This document shows, in pieces, positions 3,446-61,309 of a DNA stretch of 64,000 nt. Numbering within the stretch: the first letter of the stretch is position 1; every line of letters begins with the position of its first letter. Below the pieces are notes generated by a model. The model ran no database searches. It was not told the DNA's origin and saw only the letters and a program-made list of their open reading frames with translations. Source of the stretch: Bacteroidales bacterium. Its GTDB lineage: Bacteria > Bacteroidota > Bacteroidia > Bacteroidales > P3. The position numbers were made by a program, and so were the translations under genes. The stretch lies in the NCBI GenBank assembly GCA_017480245.1, contig JAFVBA010000004.1:64011-128010 (forward strand), given 5' to 3'.

Positions 3446-3614
3446 TCCGCTTTCTTTGAATTTCTCTCCGCCCTTTCGCATTTTAATTTCAAAAAAACTA
3501 TTTTTTTGACTCCAAAAAACTCTTTTTTCGGGTAGAAAAAACCCTTTTTTTGAAATTCTTTTCAGATAAGGCGGCAGAATCTTCAAATAAAGCGGAAACT
3601 TTTACACATAAGGC
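3446..3614. repeat. 22-bp periodic dyad array, family A copy 1
   Basis: Three dyads of the form A6-7-CTC/CTA/CCC-T6-7 are centred at 3499, 3521 and 3543, exactly 22 bp apart. They are flanked on the left by CCGCTTT (3447) and CCGCCCTTT (3468), and on the right by AAGGCGG (3568), AAGCGG (3590) and AAGGC (3610). The whole tract is roughly palindromic. It fills the gap between etfA (ending 3655) and the transketolase N-subunit start. Copies 2 and 3 lie near 21.9 and 52.8 kb. Confidence 0.85.
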
Positions 3615-3654
3615 AATCTTTTTATTTGATATTTATCATTGTTTTTCAAAAAAA

Positions 3655-4656
3655 TTATTTCATTTCTGCTTTTAATCTCTCTGTAAGCATAGGTACGATT
3701 TTATGTAAGTCGCCTACGATACCCAAATCGGCAACTTGCATAATCGGAGCGAATTTGTCTTTGTTTATTGCAACGATAAATTCACTTGATTCCATACCTG
3801 CAATATGCTGAATGGCACCTGAGATTCCGCAAGCCATATAAAGATTTGGTCTGACGGTCTTTCCTGTTTGTCCGACCTGACGTTCATGGTCTATAACGCC
3901 CGCATCAACCATTGCTCTTGAGGAAGAAACTTCGCCTTTCAACATTTCAGCCAAATTTTCCAACTTCTTAAATCCTTCTTTGTTGGCAACGCCACGGCCT
4001 CCTGAGATAAGAACTTTTGCTTCGGTGATATCAACTTTCGCTTCTTTCTTAACGGTTTCCAAAACCTTTACTTTGAATTTGTCTTTATTGAAGTTGATTT
4101 TCTCTTCTATAACTTCACCTTTGCGACTTTCATCCTTAGCCATTTTTTGCATAACTCCAGGGCGGACGGTACTCATCTGCGGACGGTGATTAGGGCAAAC
4201 AATCGTTGCCATTAAGTTTCCGCCGAATGCAGGACGCGTACTCCAAAGTTCTTTATCCTCCTCGTTAATTTCAAGTTTGGTACAATCGGCAGTAAGTCCT
4301 GTATTTACTCTTGCAGATACACGCGGCCCTAAATCCCTTCCTATTGTCGTTGAACCGATAAGCACGATTGACGGTTTTTTATCATTAATCAATTGTGCAA
4401 TTGCCTGAGTGTATGGCTCGGTTGTATAAACTGCCAAACTTTCATCTTCAACTAAAAGAACTTTATCAGCACCGTAAGCAATCAATTCCTGTGCTTGGGA
4501 CTTTATGTTATGACCTAAGAACAAAGCATGCACTTCCTGTCCCAAGTTATCAGCCAATTCTCTTGCTTTTCCCAAAAGTTCCAATCCTACATTTTGTATT
4601 TTGCCTTCTCTTTGCTCAACAAATACAAATATATTCTTATATTCTTCTTTATTCAT
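3655..4656 (-). CDS. etfA: Electron transfer flavoprotein alpha subunit (first set)
   Basis: EtfA holds the FAD of the EtfAB heterodimer, which carries electrons to or from acyl-CoA dehydrogenases in the cytosol. The 333 residues have the N-terminal ETF fold followed, from about 210, by the FAD-binding domain: SGGRGVANKEGF, SSSRAMVDAGVIDHERQ and the signature VGQTGKTVRPNLYMACG. Length is normal. It lies downstream of etfB (4760-5542) and an acyl-CoA dehydrogenase (5612-6751) on the same strand, an arrangement known from butyryl-CoA-forming electron-bifurcating complexes. The spacer to etfB holds a heptamer repeat (family D). A second, differently ordered set is at 43.1-46.7 kb. Confidence 0.95.
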   Translation of the reverse strand: MNKEEYKNIFVFVEQREGKIQNVGLELLGKARELADNLGQEVHALFLGHNIKSQAQELIAYGADKVLLVEDESLAVYTTEPYTQAIAQLINDKKPSIVLIGSTTIGRDLGPRVSARVNTGLTADCTKLEINEEDKELWSTRPAFGGNLMATIVCPNHRPQMSTVRPGVMQKMAKDESRKGEVIEEKINFNKDKFKVKVLETVKKEAKVDITEAKVLISGGRGVANKEGFKKLENLAEMLKGEVSSSRAMVDAGVIDHERQVGQTGKTVRPNLYMACGISGAIQHIAGMESSEFIVAINKDKFAPIMQVADLGIVGDLHKIVPMLTERLKAEMK

Positions 4657-4680
4657 CGCTATTTACTTTTTTAATGTAAC

Positions 4681-4757
4681 ATGTAGTATTTAGTATGTAA
4701 TATATGACTATGCCATAGTTACAAAATAATATGCTACATACTACATTCTACATACTA
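4681..4757. repeat. Heptamer TAG/CTA repeat, family D copy 1
   Basis: CTA triplets recur exactly every 7 bases at 4734, 4741, 4748 and 4755 (GCTACAT ACTACAT TCTACAT ACTA). The left side, from 4683, is the approximate reverse complement (TAGTATTTAGTATGTAA). The tract can fold as a long imperfect hairpin. It separates etfB from etfA in the same transcription direction. Confidence 0.8.
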
Positions 4758-4759
4758 AA

Positions 4760-5542
4760 TTAAATAATGTGCTTTTCTTTTAGTTTATTTACTATGATAT
4801 TTACGGCTTCTTCTGCCTCAACTTCAAATACCTCGCCCTTGGCTTTCAATCCCTTTGCAAAGGATTTCTTAACGTTTGTAGGCGATCCTTTCTTTCCTAA
4901 TCTGTCTTCCTCACATTTGATATTATCTACGCTCCACACTTCAATTTCTTTGTCAAAACACTCAACGATTCCCGAAACTGACATATAGCGTGGCTTATAT
5001 GATGAAGCCAATACTGATACTAAGCAAGGCAAATCAACTTGTACCGTCTGATAACCGTCTTCCAATTGCTTCTTTATTGTTAATGTTTTATTGCCGTCAA
5101 ACTTGCAGTCCTCAAGATAAGTAACCTGCGGAATGTCTAAGTGTTCTGCCAACTCAGGTCCTACTTGTGCGGTATCGCCGTCAATAGCCTGTCTTCCGGT
5201 TATTACAAAATCAAATCCTAATTCACGTAATGCACCTGCCAATGCGTAAGAAGTTGCAAGAGTATCAGCACCTCCTAATCTGCGGTCAGTTAAAAGTATT
5301 GCGCGGTCAGCACCCATTGCCAAGGATTCGCGAAGTATTGCCTCTGCCTGAGGTAATCCCATCGTGATAACGGTAACGTGTGCGCCGAATTCGTCTTTCA
5401 TTCTCAAGGCAAGTTCCAATCCGCCCTTATCATCAGGATTCATAATACTCGGAACGCCTTCTCTTATCAAAGTACCTGTCTTTGGGTCAATCTTTACTTC
5501 AGTTGTGTCAGGCACTTGCTTTATACAAACTACTATATTCAT
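4760..5542 (-). CDS. etfB: Electron transfer flavoprotein beta subunit (first set)
   Basis: EtfB is the AMP- or second-FAD-binding partner of EtfA. I place the start at the ATG ending at 5542 (MNIVVCIKQVPDTTEVKID), which is the family's normal N-terminus; an in-frame ATG 48 bases upstream would add an atypical 16-residue leader. The 260-residue product has the family motifs ADTLATSYALAGAL and FVITGRQAIDGDTAQVGPE (about 110-145), and ends in a lysine/glutamate-rich tail. It lies 69 bases downstream of an acyl-CoA dehydrogenase stop and upstream of etfA, so the three are probably one unit driven from the promoter near 6830. Confidence 0.95.
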   Translation of the reverse strand: MNIVVCIKQVPDTTEVKIDPKTGTLIREGVPSIMNPDDKGGLELALRMKDEFGAHVTVITMGLPQAEAILRESLAMGADRAILLTDRRLGGADTLATSYALAGALRELGFDFVITGRQAIDGDTAQVGPELAEHLDIPQVTYLEDCKFDGNKTLTIKKQLEDGYQTVQVDLPCLVSVLASSYKPRYMSVSGIVECFDKEIEVWSVDNIKCEEDRLGKKGSPTNVKKSFAKGLKAKGEVFEVEAEEAVNIIVNKLKEKHII

Positions 5543-5611
5543 TTTTATTATCTTCTTTATTAATTTAAAATTTTCTGCACGCCAGTGCAAATTGCCTGTC
5601 GGTGCTACCGA

Positions 5612-6751: not shown

Positions 6752-6816
6752 TACTTTATATTTTAGTTATTTAATTATTATATTTCTTTATCAAACCTAA
6801 TTATGCAATTAATTCA

Positions 6817-6848
6817 CAAAATTACGAAAATTCTGCCATACTAAGACA
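6817..6848 (-). promoter_or_regulatory. Promoter of acyl-CoA dehydrogenase-etfBA
   Basis: On the minus strand a TTG box (6848-6846) is followed after 21 bases by TAATTTTG (6824-6817), a perfect fit to the Bacteroidota -33/-7 consensus. The start of transcription would fall near 6810, leaving a leader of about 60 bases. Confidence 0.65.
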
Positions 6849-6984
6849 ATAAAATCAAATTATTTTTCAACAAACCGCACTTTTGAGAAAATTTACCAAA
6901 ATAAGTATTGATTTTATTTTTGAAAAACAACAAAAGGTTTCTGTAAAATCAACAGAAAAATTTGTAAGATGAAGAAAAATTTTT

Positions 6985-7126
6985 GCAATTTCAAAAAATA
7001 TTTCTGTTTGAACCGTCCGAAATTATATTTCAGACCGTCCAAAATAGTATTTTAGACGGTTCAAAATTTATTTTGGACGGTCCGAACAAAAATGTTTCTT
7101 GAAAGTGCAAAAATAAAATGCGTGAT
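6985..7126. repeat. 22-bp periodic dyad array, family B copy 1
   Basis: Four GACGGTC/GACCGTC-like 9-bp dyads (arms of four around one central base) are centred at 7014, 7036, 7058 and 7079. Weaker units continue the rhythm at about 6992 (TTTCAAAAAA), 7100 (TTTCTTGAAA) and 7121 (ATGCGTGAT). The left flank is nearly the reverse complement of the right flank, so the tract of about 140 bp is one imperfect inverted repeat. It lies between HU and the acyl-CoA dehydrogenase promoter. The remainder of 6752-7315 holds that promoter and the HU terminator; I see no gene. Confidence 0.88.
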
Positions 7127-7272
7127 TACAAAAATATTATCCAAAAAGATTAAATTTTCTTTTGATAAAAATTTACTAATCACAGTTTTTAATTTAGTTA
7201 AATCTTAATCGCTTACCGCAAGGTGTTTGAACAGTTCGCTAAATAATGATAAGGAAATAATGAAAATAAAAA

Positions 7273-7298
7273 AAGACGGTCGTTATATTGACCGTCTT
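7273..7298 (-). terminator. Terminator of the HU gene
   Basis: Perfect 9-bp arms (AAGACGGTC at 7273-7281, GACCGTCTT at 7290-7298) enclose an 8-base loop. On the minus strand the hairpin is followed by a run of seven T, 18 bases past the HU stop. The arm contains the same GACGGTC core as the family B arrays. Confidence 0.85.
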
Positions 7299-7315
7299 AA
7301 ATTTAGTTAAGAAAA

Positions 7316-7603
7316 TTATTTTTTCTTTTTAGCAGCTACATTTTCGCTAAGTTCTTTTCCTGCTTTGAATTTAACGACTTTTTTAGCCTTAACTTTAATT
7401 GTTTCACCAGTACGAGGATTTCTTGCTGTTCTTGCAGGTTTTTCTTGAACTGAAAGCGTACCAAAGCCCATCAATGTAACTCTTTCGCCTTTTATTAAGT
7501 AATCCTGTGCTGTTGCAACGAAAGCATCATAAGCTTTCATGGAATCAGTCTTTGTTAGACCGCTCATTTCAGACATTTTGTCTGCGAATTCTTTCTTTGT
7601 CAT
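7316..7603 (-). CDS. HU/IHF-family DNA-binding protein
   Basis: The 95-residue protein is a nucleoid-associated HU-type dimer that bends DNA. MTKKEFADKMSEMSGLTKTDS forms the helical dimerisation part. GFGTLSVQEKPARTARNPRTG (split here as GFGTLSV, RTARNPRTGE) is the beta-arm signature with the DNA-intercalating proline region. KAKKVVKFKAGKELSENV closes the fold, and a lysine-rich tail (AAKKKK) follows. It is monocistronic, with its own promoter (7637-7668) and a strong terminator. Whether it binds the periodic arrays found in this window is only a hypothesis. Confidence 0.95.
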   Translation of the reverse strand: MTKKEFADKMSEMSGLTKTDSMKAYDAFVATAQDYLIKGERVTLMGFGTLSVQEKPARTARNPRTGETIKVKAKKVVKFKAGKELSENVAAKKKK

Positions 7604-7636
7604 AACGTTTAATTGTTTTAAAATGTTTTACAATTG

Positions 7637-7668
7637 CAAATTTATAACTTTTTTTTCTTGTCTTACAA
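7637..7668 (-). promoter_or_regulatory. Promoter of the HU gene
   Basis: On the minus strand TTG (7668-7666) is followed after 21 bases by TAAATTTG (7644-7637) and then CAA. The spacing and boxes fit the Bacteroidota consensus, and the leader would be about 25-30 bases. Confidence 0.65.
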
Positions 7669-7696
7669 GTTTTTAGCAACTTTTTTTCAAAAAATT

Positions 7697-8656: not shown

Positions 8657-8674
8657 TGATATTGTTAGTACGTT

Positions 8675-9151: not shown

Positions 9152-9176
9152 TTTATCTTCTGTTTTTAATTTAATG

Positions 9177-11002: not shown

Positions 11003-11017
11003 GATAAATTCTCTGTT

Positions 11018-12418: not shown

Positions 12419-12430
12419 AATCTTATATAT

Positions 12431-12509
12431 TTAGTATGTAATATGGATTATGTAGCATATAGTGTGTAAAAAGAATATATATTACACACTATATGCTACA
12501 TAATCTATT
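12431..12509. repeat. Family D copy 2 with perfect 24-bp inverted repeat
   Basis: The 24 bases at 12446-12469 (starting GATTATGTAGCATATAG) are the exact reverse complement of 12482-12505, around a 12-base AT-rich loop. TAG triplets sit 7 bases apart (12453 and 12460), as in the other family D copies. It fills the gap between the asnS stop and the rpoN start. It would form a very stable RNA hairpin in an asnS-rpoN transcript and may attenuate read-through, although there is no clean T-tract after it. Confidence 0.88.
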
Positions 12510-12510
12510 A

Positions 12511-13917
12511 TTAAAATGTTGCATTCTTAGGAAAACGAGGGAAAGGTATAACATCACGGATATTACTCATACCCGTAACGAACAGAAGTAACCTTTCAAA
12601 TCCCAAACCAAAGCCACTGTGAGGACAAGAACCGAAACGACGAGTATCCAAATACCATTGGTAATGTTCCATATTCATATTAAGTTCTTGCATTCTCGTT
12701 GTAAGTTTGTTATAATCTGCCTCACGCTCGCTTCCTCCGATAATCTCGCCTATTTGAGGGAACAAAACGTCCATTCCTCTCACCGTCTTGCCGTCATCAT
12801 TCTGTTTCATATAGAAAGATTTGATTTCCTTAGGCCAATCTGTCAAGATAACGGGACGTTTGAAGTGTTTTTCAACCAAATATCTCTCATGCTCACTCTG
12901 AAGGTCCATTCCCCAAGATACAGGTACCTCAAACTTCTGTCCGCTTGCGGCAAGAATATCTATAGCCTGCGTATAAGGAAGACGGACAAAGGATTCTTTA
13001 AGCACACCTTCCAAACGCTCGAGAAGACTCTTGTCATACATATCGTTAAGGAAAGAAATATCGTCCTTACAATTGTCAAGAGCATAACGAACTAAGTATT
13101 TGATGAAATCTTCAGCCAAATCCATGTTATCATTTATATCATAGAATGCCATTTCCGGCTCAATCATCCAAAATTCTGCCAAATGGCGCGGCGTATTACT
13201 GTTTTCCGCTCTGAAGGTTGGACCGAAAGTATAAATCTTTCCTATAGATGTAGCACCTAATTCACCTTCCAACTGACCCGATACGGTTAAGAATGTACTC
13301 TGTCCGAAAAAGTCTTTGGTGTAATCGGTTTTACCCGCTTCGTTTTTAGGAGTGTTTTCAATGTCAAGGGTTGTTACCTGAAACATTTCGCCTGCCCCTT
13401 CGCAATCACTTGCAGTTATCAAAGGAGAGTGCCAATAGAAGAAACCTTTATCATTAAAATATTTATGGATTGCAAAAGCCATATTATGACGGATACGCAA
13501 CACTGCTCCGAATGTGTTTGTACGCGGACGCAAATGTGCAATCTCCCTTAAGAACTCCAAAGTGTGTCCTTTCTTTTGCAAAGGATAGGTTTCAACATCG
13601 GCAGAACCATAAACTTCTATTGTTTTTGCCTGAATTTCTACTAATTGCCCTTTACCCATTGACTCAACCAATTTACCAGTTACGCACAAACAAGAACCGG
13701 TTGTAATCATTTTCATTGTATCTTCACTGAAAGCGGCAATATCTGCAACAATCTGTATATTCTTTATAGTACTTCCGTCATTCAATGCAATAAAAGCCAC
13801 GCTCTTATTACCTCTTTTCGTTCTTACCCAACCTTTTACACAAACTTCTTTTTCAATTAACTCTTTTGCTTTCTCACAAAAAAGGTCTTTTATTTCAGTT
13901 CTTCTTATTGTTTCCAT
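12511..13917 (-). CDS. asnS: Asparaginyl-tRNA synthetase
   Basis: This class IIb synthetase (468 residues, usual length) charges tRNA-Asn. The N-terminal OB-fold anticodon-binding domain starts with [19 protein letters not shown]. Motif 2 of the catalytic core appears as [19 protein letters not shown], and motif 3 is [20 protein letters not shown] near the C-terminus. The Asn-type signature MIEPEMAF follows motif 2. Heptamer repeats lie on both sides of the gene. Confidence 0.96.
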
Positions 13918-13944
13918 TATTTATTTTATTATTTTCCGTAATCA

Positions 13945-13980
13945 ATATATGCTATATACTACATGCTAAATGCTACATAG
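13945..13980. repeat. Heptamer repeat, family D copy 3
   Basis: This short tract alternates GCTATATA, CTACAT, GCTAAAT and GCTACAT before TAGTATT, with CTA every 6-8 bases. Outer TACTA/TAGTA arms permit a small hairpin. It separates the mannose-1-phosphate guanylyltransferase stop from the asnS start on the minus strand. Confidence 0.65.
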
Positions 13981-13982
13981 TA

Positions 13983-15080
13983 TTAAAGATATTCTTTTCC
14001 CTTTTGAACTTCTACATCGGTCAAAAACTGCTTAACTCTCTGCTCTTCGTCTTTTTTACATATCAAAAGAACATTGCCAGAATCCACGATAATATAATCA
14101 TTCATTCCCTGAATAACCGCAAGTTTGTTGTCATCAACAGTAATTACGTTATTTTCGCAGGAATATGTCATTACGTTTTTGCCCGTTATGCTGTTGCCTT
14201 CGTTATCTTTGTTTCTGACTTCGTAAAGTGCTTTCCAAGTGCCGACATCGCTCCAACCGAAATCGGAAGGTATGACATAAACATTCGGAGCCTTCTCCAT
14301 CACGCCGTAATCTATTGATATGGATTGACAAGACGTGTAAGTTTCGTTTATAAACTCCAATTCCTTATCCGTAGCAAACAATTCCCTGCCTTGATTGAAC
14401 GCATTATAAACCTCAGGTAAGTATTCGTTCATTGCTTTGTTGATTGCATTTAACGACCAAACGAATATACCAGCATTCCATAAGAAATCGCCACTTTCAA
14501 TAAACTTCTCAGCCATTTCCCTGTTAGGTTTCTCGGTGAAAAGTTTGACTTTTTTGAAACCATTGTCGCTTTTCAAACCGTCAGTGCGGTCAAACTGAAT
14601 GTAACCGTACCCCGTATTAGGATAAGACGGCTTAATGCCGAGCGTTATCAATATGTCGTTATTTTGTGCAGCCTCCAAAGCCTGATTGATTATCTTAATA
14701 AAAACGTCTTCTTTCAAAATAAGATGGTCTGACGGCGCAACTATAATATTTGCCATCGGATTATCCTTCAATATTCTGAAATTGGCGTAAGCAATACACG
14801 GTGCAGTATTTCTTCTTGCAGGTTCGCAAATTATTCTGTCCTCTTTGATGCCGTGCAACTGCTCTGCAACCAAGTCTTTGTACATCTCACTGGTTACAAT
14901 ATATATATTATCTTTGGGACAAATCTTTTCAAAACGGTGATAAGTCATCTGAATCAAACTCTCTCCCACTCCCATAACATCAAGGAACTGTTTAGGTTTG
15001 TCAGTGCGGGACATAGGCCAAAATCTTGAGCCGATACCACCCGCCATTATCACACAATAATTGTTTTTGTTCAATTCCAT
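13983..15080 (-). CDS. Mannose-1-phosphate guanylyltransferase
   Basis: This enzyme makes GDP-mannose from mannose-1-phosphate and GTP, supplying glycan or lipopolysaccharide synthesis. The 365-residue protein opens with the nucleotidyltransferase signature VIMAGGIGSRFWPMSRTDKP, followed by KQFLD. Other family motifs are VAPSDHLI, FTEKPN, GDFLWNAGIFVW and the C-terminal FGWSDVGTWKALYE. It lacks the phosphomannose isomerase domain of bifunctional ManC enzymes (about 470 residues). It has its own promoter at 15116-15145. Confidence 0.92.
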   Translation of the reverse strand: MELNKNNYCVIMAGGIGSRFWPMSRTDKPKQFLDVMGVGESLIQMTYHRFEKICPKDNIYIVTSEMYKDLVAEQLHGIKEDRIICEPARRNTAPCIAYANFRILKDNPMANIIVAPSDHLILKEDVFIKIINQALEAAQNNDILITLGIKPSYPNTGYGYIQFDRTDGLKSDNGFKKVKLFTEKPNREMAEKFIESGDFLWNAGIFVWSLNAINKAMNEYLPEVYNAFNQGRELFATDKELEFINETYTSCQSISIDYGVMEKAPNVYVIPSDFGWSDVGTWKALYEVRNKDNEGNSITGKNVMTYSCENNVITVDDNKLAVIQGMNDYIIVDSGNVLLICKKDEEQRVKQFLTDVEVQKGKEYL

Positions 15081-15145: not shown

Positions 15146-15249
15146 AAATTTTTTATATAAAAATCCAAAATTTTCACAATTGCATCTATTATTTAGACAA
15201 TTAAACAAATTATTTGCTTATTTCATTTTTGTAACATCAAGAAAGATTT

Positions 15250-15440
15250 TTGCAAAGTGCGGAAAAATTTTTGTAATTTCAAAAAATATTTTTGTTTGGA
15301 CGGTTCAAAACTAACTTTCAGACCGTCTAAAATATAATTTTGAACCGTCTAAAAATATATTTCAGACGGTTTAAACAAAAATAATATGCGAGATTGCAAA
15401 ATTTTTATCGCTTATTCCAAAAATATTTTGAGTGATTACA
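15250..15440. repeat. 22-bp periodic dyad array, family B copy 2
   Basis: GACGGTC/GACCGTC-like dyads are centred at 15302, 15324, 15346 and 15368, exactly 22 bp apart. Weaker units extend the register to about 15258 (AAAGTGCGG), 15280 (TTTCAAAAAA), 15390 (ATGCGAGATT) and 15434 (GAGTGATTAC). The array fills most of 15081-15541, a gene-free gap that otherwise holds the promoter at 15116-15145. Confidence 0.88.
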
Positions 15441-15541
15441 AAAATAAAATCCAAAGACAATTTGGTATCTTCGGATTTTAAAAAAGTTTTTTAACTAATT
15501 ATTATGAGTATTTGCTATATAGCTTTCTTTATATCTCAATT

Positions 15542-18289: not shown

Positions 18290-19036
18290 TTATTTTGTAT
18301 TCATAACTCTTGACAACAGTTCTTTCTCTACCTTATCCCTGCAGGTAATACTTTGAAGCGCCCAAAGGATAAGCGTATCCAACCGTTTTTCTTCTGATAA
18401 ATGCCAATCAATATCCGAATTGCGCAGTTTGTTTGTAAGATAATGTAAAGTGATTGCGGCAGACACTGAAATATTAAAGCTTTCCGTGAAACCAAACATA
18501 GGAATCTTCATAAAGCAATCGGCATTGGCTATAGCCTCCTTAGAAATACCATCAACCTCACTGCCGAAAACTATCGCCGCTTTTTGAGTTATATCAATAT
18601 CTTGCAAATTAATGTCATTGTCATGCGGCATCGTGGCTATGATTTTATATCCTTCTGCCCTCAAATCATCAAAACAACGCTCTATATTTGATTTTGGATT
18701 TTTGTCATCGGACATTGGATTTGGAAGATTTGAATTTGCGGAATTGTATTTACGGATGTTCAACCATTTATTCGCACCCAATGAAATGTCATCAGTAACC
18801 GAGAATTTGTTGTTATTCTCCACTATCCTTACTTCCTGAATGCCTAAACAATCACAAGTTCTCAGTACAGCGGATGCGTTTTGTGCTTTATGTATATTCT
18901 CAATTACGGGAATAAATCTGTCAGTGCGTAAATCAATTACCGATTCCAATGTATTCTTTCTTTCTTCGGTTATAATATCATAAAGAAGCGAATAATATTT
19001 TTGCTTATTTATTATATCTAAATCTCTGTACGTCAT
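18290..19036 (-). CDS. SpoU/TrmH-family RNA 2'-O-methyltransferase
   Basis: The 248-residue protein has the SPOUT trefoil-knot motifs: FIPVIENIHKAQNASAVLRTC (motif 1, with the conserved Asn and Arg, about 46-66), AAIVFGSEVDGISKEAI (motif 2) and IPMFGFTESFNISVSAAITL (motif 3, forming the S-adenosylmethionine knot). The target is probably Gm18 of tRNA, as for TrmH, but an rRNA target cannot be excluded. It lies 12 bases downstream of a glycosyltransferase gene on the same strand. Confidence 0.88.
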   Translation of the reverse strand: MTYRDLDIINKQKYYSLLYDIITEERKNTLESVIDLRTDRFIPVIENIHKAQNASAVLRTCDCLGIQEVRIVENNNKFSVTDDISLGANKWLNIRKYNSANSNLPNPMSDDKNPKSNIERCFDDLRAEGYKIIATMPHDNDINLQDIDITQKAAIVFGSEVDGISKEAIANADCFMKIPMFGFTESFNISVSAAITLHYLTNKLRNSDIDWHLSEEKRLDTLILWALQSITCRDKVEKELLSRVMNTK

Positions 19037-21720: not shown

Positions 21721-21851
21721 AACCTTTTGTTTTTTCTGATAACGGAGAAAACACCTTTTTATTATAATAAGTTATAAAGTGCAATAAATTTAATGAATAG
21801 TTGATAAAATTCTATAAAAACTCAATTACTTATTGCCGAATATGAAGATTT

Positions 21852-22021
21852 TGCCGCCTACTTACTGTTTTTCGCCGCCCTTTCAAGAAAGAATTTGAAA
21901 AAAACTATTTTTTTGACTCAAAAAAACTCTTTTTTTTGGGTAAAAAAACTCTTTCTTTGAAATTCTTTCCGCAAGGGGCGGTGGGATAACGGCAAAGGGC
22001 GGTGAAATTTTCAAAAAAGGC
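21852..22021. repeat. 22-bp periodic dyad array, family A copy 2
   Basis: Dyads A7-CTA/CTC-T3-8 are centred at 21906, 21928 and 21950 (exactly 22 bp apart). GCCGCC units lie on the left at 21853 and 21874, and AAGG units on the right at 21973, 21995 and 22017 (again 22 bp). It sits between divergent genes, just upstream of the alcohol dehydrogenase promoter; nothing else is visible in 21721-22133. Confidence 0.88.
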
Positions 22022-23321: not shown

Positions 23322-23330
23322 CGCTGCGCT

Positions 23331-23412
23331 TATATAGTATTTAGAATGTAGTATGTAGCATATTAAAACGTAAAAATTAAATGCTACGTACTACATTCTA
23401 AATACTACATAT
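23331..23412 (+). terminator. Family D copy 4: 27-bp hairpin between convergent genes
   Basis: The 27-base arm at 23335-23361 (TAGTATTTAGAATGTAG...) pairs with 23381-23407 around a 19-base loop, with one T-G wobble. TAG/CTA triplets recur every 7 bases. It lies directly after the alcohol dehydrogenase stop and before the convergent glucosaminidase stop, so it may end transcripts, although there is no strong T-tract. It is also the longest hairpin of the heptamer family. Confidence 0.7.
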
Positions 23413-23425
23413 AAAATGTAGCATT

Positions 23426-24205
23426 TTATTCAAATTCTATTTCGAAATCTTGGCGTCGGACGTCTTTTTCGTCTATCATCTTCTGAATTTGTTCGTCTAA
23501 TTCACGGCGTTTGCGCTCCTGAGGTGTCTCATGACGGCGCTGATACCACTTAGTATTTCCGAAAATCCGCTCCATAAGTGATTTTTTGTGCTTAACAGGT
23601 TCTTTATCCTCCACCTTGACTACACTTGGTATTACTTCTTTGCCGTCAGGTCGGATTTCTTTATCCTCAATTGCCAAATTCTTAACCAAATAATAGGAAT
23701 CATCGGTTACATTCTGCAAATCATAAACCTCAATCACGTTGATAAGCAGTTCAGGATACTTGGGATTAGTGGCATATCCCGCTTGTTTCAACCCGTTCGC
23801 CCATCCTTTATAATCATTTACGTCCAAATCGAACAGAAATGCGTAACGCTTCCCTTTAGATAAGAATATGCTGTGGTCATTAAAGGATTCTTCGGCAGAA
23901 TCATACACACGGAAACAATCATTCTTACTGTCATCATCTTTATATGTCCGTTTGCCTTGCCAAGTTGTGTGGCACTTAATACCAAAGTGGTTGTTACTTT
24001 CTTTAGCCAAAGAACTACGGCCGCTACCCGACTCTATAATTCCCTGAGCTAAGGTAATACTTGCAGGAATCTTGTATTGCTTTTGGTTTTCTATTGCAAT
24101 ATTGCGGTATTTGGCAATATAATCTTCGGTAACTGTGTTTTTATTTTGTGCAATTGCGATAACGCTGCACGCAATGCCGATAAGCAAAAAACAAATTCTC
24201 TTCAT
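23426..24205 (-). CDS. Exported glucosaminidase-family peptidoglycan hydrolase
   Basis: The 259-residue protein has a signal peptide (1-19, ending VIAIAQ) and a glucosaminidase (FlgJ/LytF-type) domain at about 30-165. The motif SITLAQGIIESGSGRSSLA contains the expected catalytic Glu, and NNHFGIKC and YDSAEESFNDHSIFL follow in the family order. A lysine-rich C-terminal stretch (about 200-259, with KWYQRRHETPQERKRRELDE) looks helical and may contact the cell wall or DNA-free periplasmic partners. It should cleave between GlcNAc and MurNAc in the periplasm. Confidence 0.88.
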   Translation of the reverse strand: MKRICFLLIGIACSVIAIAQNKNTVTEDYIAKYRNIAIENQKQYKIPASITLAQGIIESGSGRSSLAKESNNHFGIKCHTTWQGKRTYKDDDSKNDCFRVYDSAEESFNDHSIFLSKGKRYAFLFDLDVNDYKGWANGLKQAGYATNPKYPELLINVIEVYDLQNVTDDSYYLVKNLAIEDKEIRPDGKEVIPSVVKVEDKEPVKHKKSLMERIFGNTKWYQRRHETPQERKRRELDEQIQKMIDEKDVRRQDFEIEFE

Positions 24206-26710: not shown

Positions 26711-26795
26711 AAATAAAGTGCCGAATTAGTAAATTGTTTTCAGAAAAGAGTAAAATGTTTTTTGAAAACAATTTCGTGATTCGGCACTTTATTTT
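26711..26795. repeat. Periodic dyad array, family C copy 1
   Basis: Four units are centred at about 26720 (GTGCCG), 26742 (TTTTCAGAAAA), 26763 (TTTTTTGAAAA) and 26784 (CGGCAC), a 21-22 bp rhythm. Outer arms AAATAAAGTGCCG/CGGCACTTTATTT are exact complements. The core GAGTAAAATG in the middle is shared with copies 2-4. It follows the AraC gene and could also act as its terminator hairpin. Confidence 0.85.
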
Positions 26796-29890: not shown

Positions 29891-29929
29891 TCGATAAATA
29901 AATTTCGTGAAATGCTGACACTATAAAAT

Positions 29930-30012
29930 AAGACGGCGTTTCACGAAATTATTTTTTGAAAACATTTTACTCTTTTCAGAAAAGAATTTATTGTTTCGGC
30001 ACTTTATTTTAA
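29930..30012. repeat. Periodic dyad array, family C copy 2
   Basis: Units are centred at about 29935 (GACGGC), 29957 (TTTTTTGAAAA), 29978 (TTTTCAGAAAA) and 30000 (CGGCAC), 21-22 bp apart. The core CATTTTACTC is the reverse complement of that in copy 1, so the inner part is inverted relative to it. It lies between kamA and kamB in the same direction, preceded by a related tract TTTCGTGAAATG (29904-29915). Confidence 0.82.
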
Positions 30013-32472: not shown

Positions 32473-32474
32473 AT

Positions 32475-32533
32475 TAAAGTGCGACATTATTTTATTAAAG
32501 TGGGACATTATTTCAAAGAAATGGGACATTAAT
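32475..32533. repeat. Three GACATTA repeats with 21-bp period
   Basis: GACATTA occurs at 32483, 32504 and 32525, exactly 21 bases apart, each preceded by AAAGTGC/G-G or AAATGG. The tract fills the 63-base gap between kamC and the O-methyltransferase gene. The 21-base unit equals seven codons, so all six frames show a seven-residue periodicity that is not coding. Confidence 0.85.
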
Positions 32534-32535
32534 TT

Positions 32536-33201
32536 ATGGAAAACAAACAAGAAAAACAGATTCACCCGTTTATTGATAAAAGAGTGGAAGATTATTGCGC
32601 TAATCACCACTCCAACCACAGCGAGATATTACAAGAATTAGACCGTCAGACACATCTTAAATTTGTTAAGCCACATATGGTCAGCAGTGCGTGGCAAGGT
32701 GAGTTTTTGATGCTTATTTGCAAGATGTTAAAGCCTAAACGTATTTTGGAAATAGGAACTTTTTCGGGTTATGCCACAACTTGTTTTGCTCTTGCCACAG
32801 ATGATGATTGTAAGATTGATACTATTGAAGCCCTTAGGGAATATGAACCGTTTTTAGTTAAGAATTTCACTGCCAATAAGGTAATTGACAAGATTAATTT
32901 GCATTTCGGGCAAGGTTTGGAGGTAATTCCTACGCTTAAAAACAAATATGATTTGATTTTTTTGGATGCTGAGAAAATCCATTACCCGAATTACTATCCT
33001 CTGTTGGTAGAAAAATTAAATAAGGGGGGCATTTTGATTGCCGACAATATACTTTGGTACGGTAAGGTGGCACTTGACAATTGTAATGACAATGATACTC
33101 AGGCAATAAGGCTCTTTAATGACTTAATATCCCAAGATGAACGGATGGAAAGCCTCATTATACCAATAAGGGACGGACTGGTTGTATCCAGACGTCGATA
33201 A
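32536..33201 (+). CDS. SAM-dependent O-methyltransferase (caffeoyl-CoA type family)
   Basis: The 221-residue protein belongs to the Methyltransf_3 family. ILEIGTFSGYATTCFA (about 72-87) is the SAM-binding motif I, TIEALREYEP motif II, DLIFLDAEKIHYPNYYP carries the metal-binding Asp, and GGILIADNILWYGKV the following Asp-Asn. SLIIPIRDGLVVSRRR forms the C-terminal strand. The substrate is unknown; bacterial members methylate catechol-like compounds. Its last 26 codons overlap a convergent gene (33124-33654). Confidence 0.88.
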   Translation: MENKQEKQIHPFIDKRVEDYCANHHSNHSEILQELDRQTHLKFVKPHMVSSAWQGEFLMLICKMLKPKRILEIGTFSGYATTCFALATDDDCKIDTIEALREYEPFLVKNFTANKVIDKINLHFGQGLEVIPTLKNKYDLIFLDAEKIHYPNYYPLLVEKLNKGGILIADNILWYGKVALDNCNDNDTQAIRLFNDLISQDERMESLIIPIRDGLVVSRRR

Positions 33202-35236: not shown

Positions 35237-35310
35237 AGTAATTTTTTTGATTCGTTAAAACAATTTTGCAATTAGTGATAATATTTTTGAAATCTGTACA
35301 AATAATTTTG

Positions 35311-35432
35311 CAAATTCCCAATTTATTTTTGTCAAGACCGTTCAAAACATAATTTCAGACGGTCTAAAATACTATTTTGAACGGTTCAAAATTATGTTTT
35401 GGACGGTTCAAACAAAAATGTTTTTTGAATTT
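35311..35432. repeat. 22-bp periodic dyad array, family B copy 3
   Basis: GACCGTTC/GACGGTC/GAACGGTTC/GACGGTTC dyads are centred at 35339, 35361, 35383 and 35405, exactly 22 bp apart. Outer units are AAATTCCCAATTT near 35316 and TTTTTTGAAT near 35427. It lies in the divergent gap 35210-35671 between the small membrane protein gene and the rho promoter. The rest of the gap holds the two promoters and an AT-rich rho leader of about 115 bases. Confidence 0.88.
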
Positions 35433-35516
35433 GCAAAAATTATTCTTCCTTTTACAAAATTCTTTTCGCTTGCCGCGGAAATTTTGAGGCATTTTATTAA
35501 AATTTTCTGCAATTTT

Positions 35517-37477: not shown

Positions 37478-37483
37478 ATTTTT

Positions 37484-37522
37484 ATGTAGTATGTAGAATG
37501 TAGTATGTAATATAGATATTCT
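37484..37522. repeat. Heptamer repeat, family D copy 5
   Basis: TAG triplets lie exactly 7 bases apart at 37487, 37494 and 37501 (TAGTATG TAGAATG TAGTATG), continued by TAATATAG. The tract lies 7 bases past the rho stop, before glyS. A complementary arm is mostly missing, unlike copies 1, 2 and 4. Confidence 0.78.
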
Positions 37523-37555
37523 GCATAGTGCATATAACATAATATATTAAATAAA

Positions 37556-39064: not shown

Positions 39065-39098
39065 AGGCAGAGAATTTTACATATATATAATAATGTAA

Positions 39099-39140
39099 AA
39101 ATAAAGTGCGTGATTAATCAAATAATCACGCATTTTATTT
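39099..39140 (+). terminator. Terminator between glyS and truA
   Basis: An 18-bp stem (39099-39116 with 39123-39140), interrupted only by one G-T wobble, encloses a 6-base loop. The wobble is valid on the plus strand, so it mainly serves glyS; the 3' arm ends in TTTTATTT. A third related unit (TAATCACACACTTTATTTT) follows at 39144, 21 bases after the second, giving it the same rhythm as the dyad arrays. Confidence 0.75.
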
Positions 39141-39187
39141 AACTAATCACACACTTTATTTTAAGGGATTCGTATTTGTATTTTTTC

Positions 39188-42700: not shown

Positions 42701-42945
42701 AAGTCTCCTATTTTTCAAACAAAAGTCCCGCTTTTTCATATCAAATGCCGCAATCTCCGTCTTCAGTGCCGACAAATTTTTATTCAATCCTTGACTTCAG
42801 AATAAAAAAGTGGCACTTCTACGGTATAAAAATGACACTTGGAGGATATAAAAATGTCGATTCTCTGTTCAGAATGTAAGCACTGAACAAAAATTTGTCG
42901 GCACTGAAATATTTTTATAGTGCTTTGGAATAAAATCTTGACACC
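42701..42945. repeat. Periodic array enclosing a 147-bp element with 25-bp terminal inverted repeats
   Basis: Short GC-containing motifs recur in an AT-rich background at about 42703 (GTCTCC), 42725 (GTCCCG), 42747 (GCCGC), 42768 (GCCGAC), 42811 (TGGCACTT), 42833 (TGACACTT), 42855 (TGTCGATT), 42897 (GTCGGCAC), 42919 (AGTGCTTT) and 42940 (GACACC), mostly multiples of 22 bp apart. Inside, 42762-42786 and 42884-42908 are 25-bp inverted repeats with one mismatch. It fills most of the divergent gap 42555-43105. No ORF is inside. Confidence 0.75.
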
Positions 42946-46672: not shown

Positions 46673-46695
46673 ATTATTGTAACACATCATATTAA

Positions 46696-46777
46696 CAAAG
46701 TGGCGTTTTACGAAATTCTTTTCTGAAAACATTTTACTCTTTTCAAAAAAGAATTTATTGAAATGCCACTTTATTTT
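46696..46777. repeat. Periodic dyad array, family C copy 3
   Basis: Units are centred at about 46702 (GTGGCG), 46724 (TTTTCTGAAAA), 46745 (TTTTCAAAAAA) and 46766 (TGCCAC), 21-22 bp apart, with outer AAAGTGGC/GCCACTTT arms. The core CATTTTACTC is in the same orientation as in copy 2. It lies in the gap 46673-47030 between the acyl-CoA dehydrogenase and the sigma factor promoter; no gene is seen there. Confidence 0.85.
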
Positions 46778-52707: not shown

Positions 52708-52726
52708 ATGCCCTTTTGGATAATAT

Positions 52727-52898
52727 CGCCGCCTTTGTGTTGTTTTCCGCCGCCCTTTGCGGAAATAATTTGAAAAAAACTCTTTTTTTGATCTAAAAAA
52801 ACTGTTTTTTTGAGAAGAAAAAACTCTTTTTTTTAAATTATTTCCGCAAGGGGCGGCGCAATATTGCGCAAGGGCGGCAGAAAACAACCTAAGGGCAG
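52727..52898. repeat. 22-bp periodic dyad array, family A copy 3
   Basis: Dyads A6-7-CTC/CTG-T7-8 are centred at 52781, 52803 and 52825 (exactly 22 bp). CGCCGCC-TTT units lie at 52727 and 52748, TTTGCGGAAA at 52760, TTTCCGCAAG at 52845, and AAGG units at 52848, 52870 and 52891. This is the most complete copy, near-palindromic over 170 bp. It lies in the divergent gap 52653-53103 between the porin and acyl-CoA synthetase promoters; nothing else is seen there. Confidence 0.9.
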
Positions 52899-53045
52899 TG
52901 AAAAATAGAGAGGATTTTGTATTAAAATAAATAAAATCAAAAAGAATTTGTCTAAACGAAAAAATGATTAGTGAAAATATCGCAAAAGTTAAGGAATTTG
53001 TAACATTTTTTCGCCGCTTAGGGTCTGTAATATCAAAAAATGTTC

Positions 53046-53053: not shown

Positions 53054-53103
53054 CAAGCCTATAATGTTACTAAATGCGGTTTCGCACTGCTAAATAAATA
53101 ATA

Positions 53104-54765: not shown

Positions 54766-54807
54766 AAATTTAATTAGCCAATACGGAAAATTGAAATTTG
54801 AATATAT

Positions 54808-54853
54808 AAAAATAAGACGGTATTCTTTTGAATTGAAATACCGTCTTATTTTT
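54808..54853. terminator. Bidirectional terminator
   Basis: A perfect 17-bp stem (54808-54824 with 54837-54853) with a 12-base loop lies between convergent stops at 54765 and 54863. Flanking A and T runs give T-tracts in both directions. The stem includes AAGACGGTATT, close to the GACGGT core of family B. Confidence 0.9.
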
Positions 54854-54862
54854 TTCTTCCCG

Positions 54863-56620: not shown

Positions 56621-56674
56621 CTTATCAAATTTTACCTTTTTATTAATAAAAATCTCCTAAACAACGTAAAAATA

Positions 56675-56706
56675 TTTTGCCGTATTGTCTTTTTTTTCTA
56701 AATTTG
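56675..56706 (+). promoter_or_regulatory. Promoter of lepB
   Basis: TTTTG (56675-56679) is followed after 19 bases by TAAATTTG (56699-56706) and CACTT. Full consensus match; leader about 30 bases. Confidence 0.68.
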
Positions 56707-56744
56707 CACTTTAATTTGTAATTTTTTTAATAAAAAAGACTGAA

Positions 56745-58478: not shown

Positions 58479-58497
58479 CAAAAAATTTCATTCGTTT

Positions 58498-59202
58498 ATG
58501 AAAAAGACAAGAAAAGGTAATATTTTACTGTTATCAAGTGATGAAACATTGCAGAGAGTTCTGTATTTATACTTCTCAAGAAAGTATTATAATGTGTTTT
58601 GTCCGCAAAATGCCAAAGAGTTGGAGCAAGTCAAGAAAAACAATGCCATAAGTTTTGCAATACTTGATGATGACAGTAAAATTGATTCAAACATAAGTTT
58701 ATGTAATTCTCTTTTAGAATTTGACAATGAAATAGTTATCTACTTTATTTGCCAAAATACTGAAACAAAACATAAAGTAGAGACTGCAAATCCATTGTTC
58801 TTCACTATATTAAAGCCGTTTGCAATGAGAAATCTTCTTAGCAAGATGACTTCTACGGCAAATAAACTAAAAGATGAAGAAAACAAAATAACTACATTTA
58901 ATATAGGCAATTACAAATTTAACTTGAGAACATCAACTCTTACATTCAAAGGAGAGGAACCTAATATAGAACAACACTTAACGAAAAAAGAATGTCAAAT
59001 TCTTCAGATTCTCGCTCAAAATACAAGAAAAATGGTATCAAAACACCGATTGCTTATGAATATTTGGAAAAAAGACACCTACCAAACCTCAAGAAGTATG
59101 GATGTTTATATGACCCGTCTGCGTCATTACTTATCTTCAGACACTAATATCTCCATAGAAAACACTCATTCCTTAGGTTACTGCCTAAATGTTAAGGAGT
59201 AA
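58498..59202 (+). CDS. OmpR-type response regulator
   Basis: The 234-residue protein has an N-terminal receiver-like domain (1-118) and a C-terminal winged helix (about 140-232; LTKKECQILQILAQNTRKMV, WKKDTYQTSRSMDVYMTRLR, ENTHSLGYCL). In the receiver, ILLLSSDE replaces the usual double-acid motif with a single Asp-Glu, the phosphoacceptor region reads AILDDDSK, and LKPF keeps the conserved Lys. The Thr/Ser switch position seems to be Cys (YFICQN). Phosphorylation is therefore possible but weakened. It follows lepB in the same direction; no histidine kinase is adjacent. Confidence 0.85.
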   Translation: MKKTRKGNILLLSSDETLQRVLYLYFSRKYYNVFCPQNAKELEQVKKNNAISFAILDDDSKIDSNISLCNSLLEFDNEIVIYFICQNTETKHKVETANPLFFTILKPFAMRNLLSKMTSTANKLKDEENKITTFNIGNYKFNLRTSTLTFKGEEPNIEQHLTKKECQILQILAQNTRKMVSKHRLLMNIWKKDTYQTSRSMDVYMTRLRHYLSSDTNISIENTHSLGYCLNVKE

Positions 59203-59233
59203 TAAACAGAAATAAAGATTTTGTGCTTACAAT

Positions 59234-61177
59234 CTACAAGTTACGTAGATTTTTCAGTAATATATCCGCATCCGTTTTGATATTCCAATTGTTAGCATAC
59301 ATCAAATTCAAACGGTGTGCTGTCTGTTTGTCAAGATTCTCGCTTTTAAGATTTTCACTTACGGAAAAAACGCCTTGTTTCAACTTCGGTAACTCCCCTA
59401 TTTTGATGTCATTGTTGTTATATCCTACAAAAGTCCGTTTAGATAAGAGAACAAAAACATCATCTTTCAATGCAACGAAATGTTTTTTGCAAAATACTAT
59501 AACCAATGGGAAAAATAGCAGAATAATAAGCGATAAAGACAAGTCAAACAGCCGTTTCTTTCTTTTGTTATCCTCTGAAGATATATTATTTACACTCATC
59601 ACATAAATATCTGTCGGAGTGTTTATCGTATTGCTGCCTATTATGAAATCCGTAACCTCAGGCGCTATGGTGAATCGCACATTGTTTTCGGACAAATCCG
59701 CCATCAATGAAATTATCTTACTTTGTGGCAACGATTTACTGCAAAAGATTACTTCATTTACGTGATAAATTCTTATAATATCCTCAATCTGCGAAATATT
59801 ACCTAAAAAATAATCTCTGTCTTCGTCATTTTCGCCGCTTACAAGACCGATAAATTCAGGTTTTAGGTCGGTTGAACGCAACAAATCGGTAACGCGTTTG
59901 GTTTCCTGCTTATCTCCTACTATTATATATGAAGATGAGTTTTCGTTTATCGCCCAATGCCCAGTTTTGATGTAATGCAAAAGGTACCTTTCGGCAAAAA
60001 GAATAAAGAAAGTGAGTATTGAACCCATTATAACCATTGCACGCGAATATCTTAAGGCTGCAGGCATAAGGGAATAGACAACCAAAATGGCTATCATTCC
60101 GAAAAATACTCCCGAAATCAATTTATTCGGTCGGAATTTGCCGTAACCTCCGAACAAATACACGCAAAACAACAGTATTATTATATATATAGGTATTGCG
60201 ACCAAGACATAGTGCGGCGGATAGTAATCGGGCGTTCCCCAATAGTATGTTGCCCAAAATCTCTCCAACAAACAAAATCCTGCATACACAAGTAAGAAAT
60301 CCAACACGGGAAGTGCCGCTTTTTTGAAGATACGTGAGAAAAATGACAACGCTGCCCGTCCCCATATTGCGAATTTTATGATTAGCGAGAAGACTTTTGT
60401 CTGTTTTGACGATAGATGTTTTTTGGCGAATATGTCCATTGCGTTATAGAAAGTATAGACATAATTCAACGAACCCTTCTTCGTGCTTTCTCCTTTATAG
60501 TGAATGATAGAAGTATCTGCGAAATAATAGTTTTTATATCCCCCCTGAGTAATGCGGTATGACAAATCAATGTCCTCGCCGTACATAAAAAACGTCTCAT
60601 CCAACAATCCGACTTTATCAAGTGCCTTTTTGCGCATCAACATAAAGGCACCAGCTAAAATATCCACCTCATTAGTTTGTTCGTATGACAGATGCCCCAT
60701 ATAATATCCGCAATACTTCTTGCTGTGAGGGAAAATCTTAGTCAGACCTGCCATCTTGCAAAAACAAACCCACGGAGTAGGAAAACCTCTTTTGCTTTCC
60801 TTAAGAATTTTTCCCTGTCCGTCAATCATTTTTACGCCCAAACCACCGGCATCAGGGTGTTTGTCCATAAAATTCAGACACTTTACGAAAGTATCTTCCT
60901 CTACTACGGTATCAGGATTTAACAACAGGACATATTCACCGCAAGATAAACGAATGGCTTGGTTATTGGCTTTGGCAAAACCTACATTGTCTTTGTTTTC
61001 AATAAGTTTTACTTCGGGGAATTTGGTTTTGAGCATATTGACAGAGCCATCTACCGAATTGTTATCCACAACGAAAATTTCGGCATCAATATTCTTTACA
61101 GCCTTACGGACACTTAAAAGACAATGTTCCAAAAAGTGCTCAACATTATAATTAACTATTACGACAGACAGTTGCAT
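59234..61177 (-). CDS. Glycosyltransferase family 2 fused to truncated sugar-phosphate-transferase-like domain
   Basis: The 647-residue membrane protein has a GT2 domain at 1-230 (LSVVIVNYNVEHFLEHCLLS, VGFAKANNQAIRLS, the metal motif in LLLNPDTVVEE, FMYGEDIDLSYRI). Membrane helices follow (about 275-410). A CoA-binding-like Rossmann part comes next (about 420-545; SSYIIVGDKQETKRVTDLLR, EVIFCSKSLPQSKIISLMAD), as found in the N-terminal half of polyprenyl-phosphate sugar transferases. It ends with KRLFDLSLSLIILLFFPLVI, the usual start of the catalytic domain, but only about 80 residues follow, without its catalytic motifs. It probably makes surface polysaccharide. Confidence 0.82.
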   Translation of the reverse strand: MQLSVVIVNYNVEHFLEHCLLSVRKAVKNIDAEIFVVDNNSVDGSVNMLKTKFPEVKLIENKDNVGFAKANNQAIRLSCGEYVLLLNPDTVVEEDTFVKCLNFMDKHPDAGGLGVKMIDGQGKILKESKRGFPTPWVCFCKMAGLTKIFPHSKKYCGYYMGHLSYEQTNEVDILAGAFMLMRKKALDKVGLLDETFFMYGEDIDLSYRITQGGYKNYYFADTSIIHYKGESTKKGSLNYVYTFYNAMDIFAKKHLSSKQTKVFSLIIKFAIWGRAALSFFSRIFKKAALPVLDFLLVYAGFCLLERFWATYYWGTPDYYPPHYVLVAIPIYIIILLFCVYLFGGYGKFRPNKLISGVFFGMIAILVVYSLMPAALRYSRAMVIMGSILTFFILFAERYLLHYIKTGHWAINENSSSYIIVGDKQETKRVTDLLRSTDLKPEFIGLVSGENDEDRDYFLGNISQIEDIIRIYHVNEVIFCSKSLPQSKIISLMADLSENNVRFTIAPEVTDFIIGSNTINTPTDIYVMSVNNISSEDNKRKKRLFDLSLSLIILLFFPLVIVFCKKHFVALKDDVFVLLSKRTFVGYNNNDIKIGELPKLKQGVFSVSENLKSENLDKQTAHRLNLMYANNWNIKTDADILLKNLRNL

Positions 61178-61206
61178 TATGCTCCGTTTTTCTCAATTTG
61201 AATTTG

Positions 61207-61214
61207 CAAAGATA
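61207..61214 (-). promoter_or_regulatory. Possible -7 box for the GT2 fusion gene
   Basis: TATCTTTG on the minus strand followed by CAAATTC lies about 30 bases before the start codon. No TTG is found at the right distance, where a family C array begins instead. Confidence 0.4.
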
Positions 61215-61223
61215 CAAAAAAAT

Positions 61224-61309
61224 GAAATAAAGTGCCGTTTCGCTGAATTCTTTTTTGAAAAGAGTAAAATGTTTTTTGAAAACAATTTCGTAAAACGGCA
61301 CTTTATTTT
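61224..61309. repeat. Periodic dyad array, family C copy 4
   Basis: Units are centred at about 61234 (GTGCCG), 61256 (TTTTTTGAAAA), 61277 (TTTTTTGAAAA) and 61298 (CGGCAC), 21-22 bp apart, with complementary outer arms AAATAAAGTGCCG/CGGCACTTTATTT. The core GAGTAAAATG has the orientation of copy 1. It lies between divergent -7 boxes (61207 and 61321) and occupies the place of both -33 regions. Confidence 0.88.

Follow-up and report, generated by a model that had tools for sequence, protein, structure and literature searches.

We analysed arrays of short inverted repeats (dyads), spaced 21 or 22 bp apart in intergenic DNA, in a 64,000-nucleotide stretch of a Bacteroidales genome (the window, G000:C29:64011-128010; G+C 37%), its source genome (G000, a 1.75-Mb draft that is 69.55% complete) and related genomes. 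The sequences suggest that two array families of the window, A and B, together with families E, F, G and others outside it, are probably cognate operator arrays, each read by its own HU-HIG protein. Observed in support of this reading are a pitch of 22 bp, a plan of dyads with directional arms, and an array of the same family upstream of the cognate gene (for A, in two related species); tens of copies of A and of B are dispersed in the same genome.

A sequence-only reading of the window had named such arrays, and all of them were found again. Short dyads (arm 6) in the gaps of the window gave distance peaks at 12, 21-23, 33 and 44 bp, with 14 dyad pairs at 22.0 bp and 15 at 22.5 bp versus 0.2 and 0.1 in shuffled sequence; with the named arrays removed, these counts dropped to 0 and 1. 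The genome-wide peak at 21-22 bp that the earlier reading had put forward as a check persisted outside the window. In a sample of 181 gaps (46 kb) from the window and 20 systematically placed 20-kb stretches of G000, with first-order Markov shuffles as the null, period 21 was found in 37 gaps, 22 in 32, 23 in 8, 42 in 14 and 44 in 18; period 7 was found in 10, period 14 in 4 and others in 0-3, and shuffles gave about 0.6 per period. Simple motifs placed 32 of the 64 array gaps of this sample in A, B or C and left the remaining 32 unassigned, though a few of these are variants of C. Further unrelated families in G000 include E (with GCCACTTGCGG arms), F, G, one 23-bp family and others of 21 bp. 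Families A, B and C and two single arrays had been taken as one kind; they split instead into a 22-bp class linked to HU-HIG genes (A and B have a pitch of 22 bp) and a 21-bp class without that link (C and the array at 32.48 kb). The claim that the spacing and not the sequence is conserved stands between families but not within a family, where the motif is strongly kept (76 B units).

The 22-bp class follows one plan, with three or four central dyads between directional arm motifs, and inverted arms are present. Thirty family A arrays have three A-tract/T-tract dyads each; of the 60 intervals between the dyad centres, 58 measure 22 bp. Phasing extends to the arms beyond the dyads, where 153 of the 175 offsets between GCYY motifs that fall within the twelve most frequent values are 21 or 42 bp. 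In family B, four GACSGTC-type dyads between TTTTTG arms are found in 17 of 19 arrays, and 50 of 57 intervals between centres measure 22 bp (20-23 allowed). In all 76 of the B units, which were selected by their ACSGT core, T occupies position -7 and purines occupy positions -4 and -3. When copies of A or of B are compared, the spacers vary, but many positions of the motif are either invariant or strictly purine or pyrimidine. In 38 arrays at HU-HIG genes, within-unit palindromicity averaged 6.82 pairs versus 5.71 when shuffled, a weak excess with 24% of shuffled units reaching that mean.

HU-HIG (PF18291) belongs to the HU/IHF superfamily of DNA-bending proteins and was chosen for the protein search because it is a branch of HU that has expanded in Bacteroidota. 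All 14 genomes of the genus set (in which the G013 assembly has 9% contamination) contain matches, 2 to 30 each with plain HU included. The search of the genus gave 124 matches, 89 of them down to an E-value of 6.7e-13, and 81 of these entered the protein tree, all from matches over the Pfam cut-off of 26.2 bits (for example, 95.8 bits for the 138-amino-acid C9:35355 protein and 83.1 bits for the C12:88680 protein). By sequence, the nearest solved structure to the HU-HIG partner protein is IHF beta (E-value 0.0025). Of 11 HU-HIG genes examined in G000, 7 are directly preceded by a 22-23 bp array; the centres of these arrays differ, though F and F2 share arms. Setting aside the 17 of 81 tree genes with an upstream gap shorter than 100 bp, 39 of 64 HU-HIG genes in the genus have a 21-23 bp array upstream, compared with 104 of 259 general upstream gaps (p 0.003). 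Eight of the 89 matches stand outside the tree; seven of them, compared afterwards by BLAST, include none of the A, B or E clade, and four of the six with a gap of at least 100 bp have an array (score 14), a count kept apart from the Fisher test. The nearest of the seven (G009:C134:17459) is 49% identical to the E-clade proteins, about as distant from that clade as G000:C20:15077, which falls outside it, and has its own 22-bp array. Beyond the genus, we examined the loci of 26 HU-HIG matches of the order outside G000. Arrays were present in 12 of the 22 upstream gaps of at least 100 bp versus 39 of 399 general upstream gaps (p 7e-7); in L313, for example, a GCTGTCAGCTGACAGC-type dyad is repeated four times at 22-bp steps. 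Strong arrays with periods of 32, 30 and 34 were also seen beside HU-HIG genes of G013 and G012 (downstream in L270; in the upstream gaps of L296 and L297); these may be CRISPR or some other class of array.

Related HU-HIG proteins carry related arrays. The B clade consists of four proteins (one each in G000 and G004, and a pair of identical copies in G013; support 100/100), all four with B arrays upstream, and E arrays lie upstream of all three E-clade genes, the one in G013 being read by eye (period score 12). Sister pairs that share an upstream motif or arms comprise the A pair (G001 and G013), the G pair, the F pair and three more. When the dispersed arrays were compared with those upstream of HU-HIG genes, against a rough null of four shuffles plus a margin, 31 of 32 arrays of 22 or 23 bp resembled one (25/26 in G000, 2/2 in G001, 4/4 in G013). 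One of these 31 is itself an array upstream of an HU-HIG gene, the match of the array at 42.8 kb is marginal, and 18 find their closest counterpart in a related genome; the A arrays of G000, for instance, match best to the HU-HIG array of G001, and A1 of the window to that of G001:C18:71697 (A clade).

If an HU-HIG protein reads its arrays, arrays are expected wherever the gene is present. The B pattern was matched 53, 66 and 57 times per strand in G000, G004 and G013, and 0 times in the 11 other genomes of the genus (at most 1 match for the reversed control). B arrays thus occur in exactly the 3 of 14 genomes that yielded a B-clade gene. G001, which prolyl-tRNA synthetase (ProRS) places closest to G000 (98%), has neither a B array nor a found B-clade gene. 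A arrays, searched with the middle of A3 (52730-52880), occur among the 14 genomes only in G000, G001 and G013, and an A-clade gene was found in G001 and G013. E arrays accompany an E-clade gene in G000, G001 and G013. Over 42 genome-by-family cells, which share ancestry, gene and arrays are both present in 8, the gene alone in 0, arrays alone in 2 and neither in 32 (Fisher 3.8e-7), with gene presence taken from the 81 tree proteins and the seven compared later.

The E-clade genes are 96-98% identical though their other neighbours within ~1.5 kb are mostly unshared, the exceptions being one 105-amino-acid stretch common to L267 and L303 and a 60-amino-acid open reading frame (ORF), beside the gene and over the array region, common to L253 and L303. 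Given near-identical genes among unlike neighbours, the E gene and its array seem to travel as a unit, and the differing neighbours can be read as a sign of horizontal transfer. In G013:C9 (L267:1537-3057), the E-clade gene and array stand next to a YhcG/DUF1016 nuclease gene; the neighbours in G000 and G001 differ. Contigs C4 and C7 of G013 gave parallel duplicate matches at a constant offset, which suggests that they are duplicated in the assembly.

On the operator reading, the HU-HIG protein itself would bind the dyads, one dimer per dyad and hence per two helical turns. Dimers 22 bp (about two turns) apart would bring neighbours onto one face of the DNA, and the outer arm motifs would extend the complex, with further subunits or a paralog bound there. 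Less certainly, an array at its own HU-HIG gene may serve autoregulation, and dispersed arrays might act at promoters or as nucleoid-organising points. The sequence-only reading had likewise proposed a DNA-level role, with a protein dimer, possibly a nucleoid protein, on one face. For A and B this is supported: the arrays are linked to HU-HIG genes, and neither family shows pairing covariation. For C a terminator role is possible.

Several observations weigh against HU-HIG proteins as the readers of the arrays. HU proteins are mostly non-specific DNA binders. Four of the 11 HU-HIG genes of G000 have no upstream array (C22:93816, C9:18919, C9:20095 and C29:129799), although C9:20095 has no gap before the gene and C29:129799 has an array downstream instead. 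Arrays are so common throughout the genus that their simple excess in front of HU-HIG genes is modest. Three sister pairs carry different motifs (G007_C51/G013_C13, G013_C14/G007_C133 and G013_C11_139086/G012_C4_73984), and in one HU-HIG clade 17 of 19 rows lack an upstream array at score 14. G000 has A arrays with no A-clade gene found in its 69.55% complete assembly, and G004 has a weak presence of E arrays (four matches) with no E-clade gene found. Clade assignment covers neither G002:C152:97615, the eighth match outside the tree, which has a stop codon, nor the 35 weaker matches of the genus, plain HU among them. Of 60 genomes of the order, only 8, G000 included, have HU-HIG matches with an E-value of at most 1e-12, so HU-HIG cannot explain every 21/22-bp array there. 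Finally, the 21-bp class shows no clear link to HU-HIG.

Another regulator might bind the arrays and control HU-HIG, the HU-HIG gene being merely one target among others, which we consider unlikely. Arrays do stand upstream of many genes, as the 104 of 259 general upstream gaps (own and genus samples) illustrate. Against this, closely related HU-HIG proteins share a motif, and genomes in which no B-clade gene was found lack dispersed B arrays. The neighbours of the B-clade gene are conserved, but they encode a radical-SAM/TRAM protein and a SIR2 protein, which are no DNA-binding regulators, and the E neighbours are mostly unshared.

To us it is slightly less likely still that the arrays are miniature mobile elements, of the miniature inverted-repeat transposable element (MITE) or repetitive extragenic palindromic (REP) type and similar to the BrickBuilt element described below, spread by a transposase acting in trans. 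Such elements could account for the high intergenic copy number and inverted ends, for the likeness of the C copies (40 of 146 first-look candidates were scored, and the 39 besides the query are 85-91% identical to it), and for gaps occupied in one species and empty in another. Yet in A and B the spacers vary while motif and pitch are kept, array ends vary, and within an A element the left arm resembles the right arm no more than arms of different elements resemble each other (0.631 vs 0.627, p 0.275). A search aimed only at the Y1 transposase (PF01797) gave 0 matches in the 69.55% complete G000 assembly, and no target-site duplications were seen in the listed C flanks, with no formal test.

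The turnover of arrays is seen in compared gaps of relatives. The gap upstream of rho holds a B array in G000, an A-type array in G001 and none in G002 and G006; the gap at rho in G013 has different flanks and no array. Gaps orthologous to that at 32.48 kb hold other 21-bp arrays in G001, G002 and G006. Since these gaps hold either a different family of equal pitch or no array, any array that is retained keeps its spacing. The earlier reading had named loss of spacing in homologous gaps as grounds for abandoning the idea; at the gaps compared we did not see it, although the arrays themselves come and go.

The location of the arrays bears on a further reading, which we regard as improbable, in which they act as RNA hairpins, either as bidirectional terminators or as RNA stabilisers. 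Among gaps of at least 120 bp, arrays were present in 25 of 67 co-directional, 18 of 33 divergent and 12 of 27 convergent gaps. For the A, B and E arrays the counts are 24 co-directional, 22 divergent and 5 convergent, one array being flagged as inside an ORF. Compared with gaps of at least 250 bp, their divergent excess has p 0.02 and their convergent deficit p 0.13, which is not significant; a promoter-side role is thus likely, not proved. The arrays had been said never to lie inside a gene; mechanically called ORFs overlap 1 of 29 A and 5 of 30 C arrays (0 of 19 for B). Intrinsic terminators would lie downstream of genes and avoid divergent gaps, where 22 of the 51 A, B and E arrays stand; B arrays are in 10 divergent gaps, where a terminator would be needless, and in 0 of 19 convergent ones. 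Nine of 12 window arrays do fold beyond shuffles at z -4 or stronger (C1 at z -10.3), the exceptions being C2 and the arrays at 32.48 and 42.8 kb, but strong folding is expected from a row of dyads. The half-sites of one B unit agree less than shuffled ones (0.42 vs 0.52), mirror units within a B array are complementary at 6.06 of 9 positions versus 6.88 for non-mirror units, and the A arms show no mirror covariation. Nor would hairpins link the arrays to the gene of a DNA-binding protein. Both the RNA-hairpin and the mobile-element readings fit A and B poorly. An Rfam search of the window at the gathering score gave 0 matches.

That the rhythm is a by-product of slippage or of phased A-tracts (curved DNA) with no dedicated binder is very improbable: A and B do contain A/T tracts every 10-11 bp, and 7- and 14-bp arrays exist, but arrays without A-tracts keep the pitch (L080, L083, L313), motif positions are fixed while spacers change, and gene and arrays co-occur. 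For the first of these reasons, A-tract curvature was dropped as a common factor.

Family C and the rest of the 21-bp class are built like A and B and have no clear HU-HIG link. In the G000 sample, 12 of the 21-bp arrays have no match to an HU-HIG-upstream array, and the 4 that match are B arrays caught by their arms; elsewhere, such matches were found for 0 of 6 arrays in G006, 1 of 7 in G001, 2 of 7 in G002 and 1 of 1 in G013, these four being weak. The C element, of which 35 distinct copies were read, is 85 bp long with two dyads at 21 bp. Of 30 copies, 8 lie in convergent and 5 in divergent gaps, and some are near stop codons. Because three pairs of its stem show weak hints of covariation (p 0.04-0.12) and because of the 8 convergent copies, C may act as a terminator. 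In G013, C-type TTTTCTGAAAA dyads flank 22-bp arrays (L195:13652-13760 and 18804-18930), so C is possibly related to array arms. A GCCTGTGCGGCTCGC-type motif stands shortly outside several C elements, on either side (flanks of L010, L018, L024, L030, L031 and L038), and C may therefore have outer arms too.

To see how far the rhythm extends, we applied one threshold throughout, the Bacteroidota samples outside G000 all being centred on one gene, ProRS. Period 21 was found in 31 of 181 gaps in G000, 27 of 123 in the same genus and 27 of 460 at named loci of the order, and period 22 in 31, 9 and 13 of the same gaps. Neither period was found in 73 gaps from other orders of the class (ten 20-kb stretches) or 82 from other classes of the phylum (ten stretches), both small samples, or in 64 gaps from three 50-kb stretches of Escherichia coli K-12. 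Array sequences differ from genome to genome, and some lack A-tracts. In the sample from the order, periods 7, 14, 8 and 11 are frequent as well, and the 21/22 peak is therefore at its sharpest within the genus. By ProRS comparison, the nearest named neighbours of G000 are metagenome-assembled genomes of rumen and gut Bacteroidales (L069, from roe deer rumen, at 96% identity).

The arrays of the window are listed in the table. The earlier reading had singled out two arrays that belong to no family; the one at 32.48 kb was confirmed, at 21 bp, but the one at 42.8 kb is weak.

Table. Repeat arrays and elements of the window, with coordinates counted from its first nucleotide.
Feature	Class	Position	Strand	Description
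A1	Family A, 22 bp	3426..3618, limits approximate		Three A-tract/T-tract dyads at 22 bp (3489-3553), GCC arms
B1	Family B, 22 bp	6954..7195		TTTTTG arms, four GACSGTC dyads, inverted arms
B2	Family B, 22 bp	15221..15476		
A2	Family A, 22 bp	21848..22010, limits approximate		Divergent gap
C element	Family C, 21 bp	26711..26795	+	85 bp, convergent gap
C element	Family C, 21 bp	29926..30010	-	Diverged copy
32.48-kb array	21 bp, GTGGGACATTATTTTATTAAA type	32473..32542		No match to any HU-HIG-upstream array
B3	Family B, 22 bp	35258..35466		Divergent gap upstream of rho
Array	21 bp, TAATCACGCA / TTTATTT type	39094..39161		Absent from the list of the sequence-only reading
42.8-kb array	Weak, 22 bp	42792..42925		Partial dyads; marginal match to HU-HIG-upstream array of G013
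C element	Family C, 21 bp	46693..46777	-	
A3	Family A, 22 bp	52716..52900, limits approximate		Divergent gap
C element	Family C, 21 bp	61225..61309	+	Divergent gap; query for the search for C copies

We also noted a canonical HU gene (PF00216) at 7316-7603 of the window, which directly adjoins B1 and also matches HU-HIG (34.3 bits). Separate 7/14-bp repeats (TATGTAG / CTACATA), often in two inverted blocks, are present at 4669-4767, 12427-12515, 13941-13987, 23330-23433 and 37482-37554, and in the rho-proS gap of G001. An intergenic gap of Parabacteroides sp. An277 holds a very regular 41-bp tandem array (L119:15555-15823, score 168).

More tentatively, at somewhat less than an even chance, Bacteroidales may carry many fast-evolving private pairs of HU-HIG gene and array, in which every paralog would read one 22-bp multi-dyad family both at the promoter of its own gene and at numerous sites between genes. 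Each pair would come and go as a whole, in some cases by transfer (as for E), with neighbouring species rebuilding the same gaps with different pairs. If so, a multi-pair HU-HIG set would form a self-renewing, sequence-specific layer of chromosome structuring or gene insulation, constant in geometry and changing in code. The operator reading itself, if true, would give the HU-HIG family its DNA targets and explain a large part of an intergenic repeat class, and would mean that proteins of the HU superfamily act as specific, diversifying regulators or architects. Since sequence alone suffices to predict the pairs, direct tests of binding, of autoregulation and of the loss or transfer of pairs are feasible.

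A 2017 Cell Cycle paper on HU clades reportedly proposed a role for HU-HIG against genome invaders. As judged by titles and abstract openings, in a search with most subscription papers outside its reach, the literature holds no description of such arrays or of DNA targets of HU-HIG. Porphyromonas gingivalis belongs to the same order as the source organism. Its BrickBuilt MITE is the nearest described repeat, being, in the portion of the account available to us, intergenic and multi-copy, with 23-nt tandem units, near two helical turns, that follow one another without spacers, a leader and a tail with inverted ends, and no transposase of its own (PMC4596501). That portion describes a single family with a 23-nt unit, and neither a dyad plan nor a partner protein (PMC4596501). 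The arrays here, in contrast, form many families of dyads at 21 or 22 bp, with a cognate HU-HIG gene for the 22-bp class; the pitch is 22 bp in A and B and 21 bp in C, and one 23-bp family occurs elsewhere in G000. REP and bacterial interspersed mosaic elements (BIMEs), which go with RAYT transposases, are palindromic, intergenic and of high copy number, whereas our arrays have a 21-22 bp pitch with arms and a cognate HU-HIG gene, with no Y1_Tnp match in the G000 assembly. Clustered regularly interspaced short palindromic repeat (CRISPR) arrays have identical repeats, unique spacers and cas genes; here the units measure 21-22 bp, each array has only a few of them, and the spacers vary.

The principle of a DNA-binding protein that has arrayed operators is known. 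In ParB/parS, MatP/matS and iteron arrays, such a protein has dispersed or arrayed cognate sites, often beside its own gene. The likeness to these systems lies in the protein with its arrayed or dispersed sites; the protein superfamily is a different one, and here several paralogous protein-array pairs exist per genome and differ between related species. We know of no system of several paralogous proteins, each with its own dispersed array family at constant pitch.

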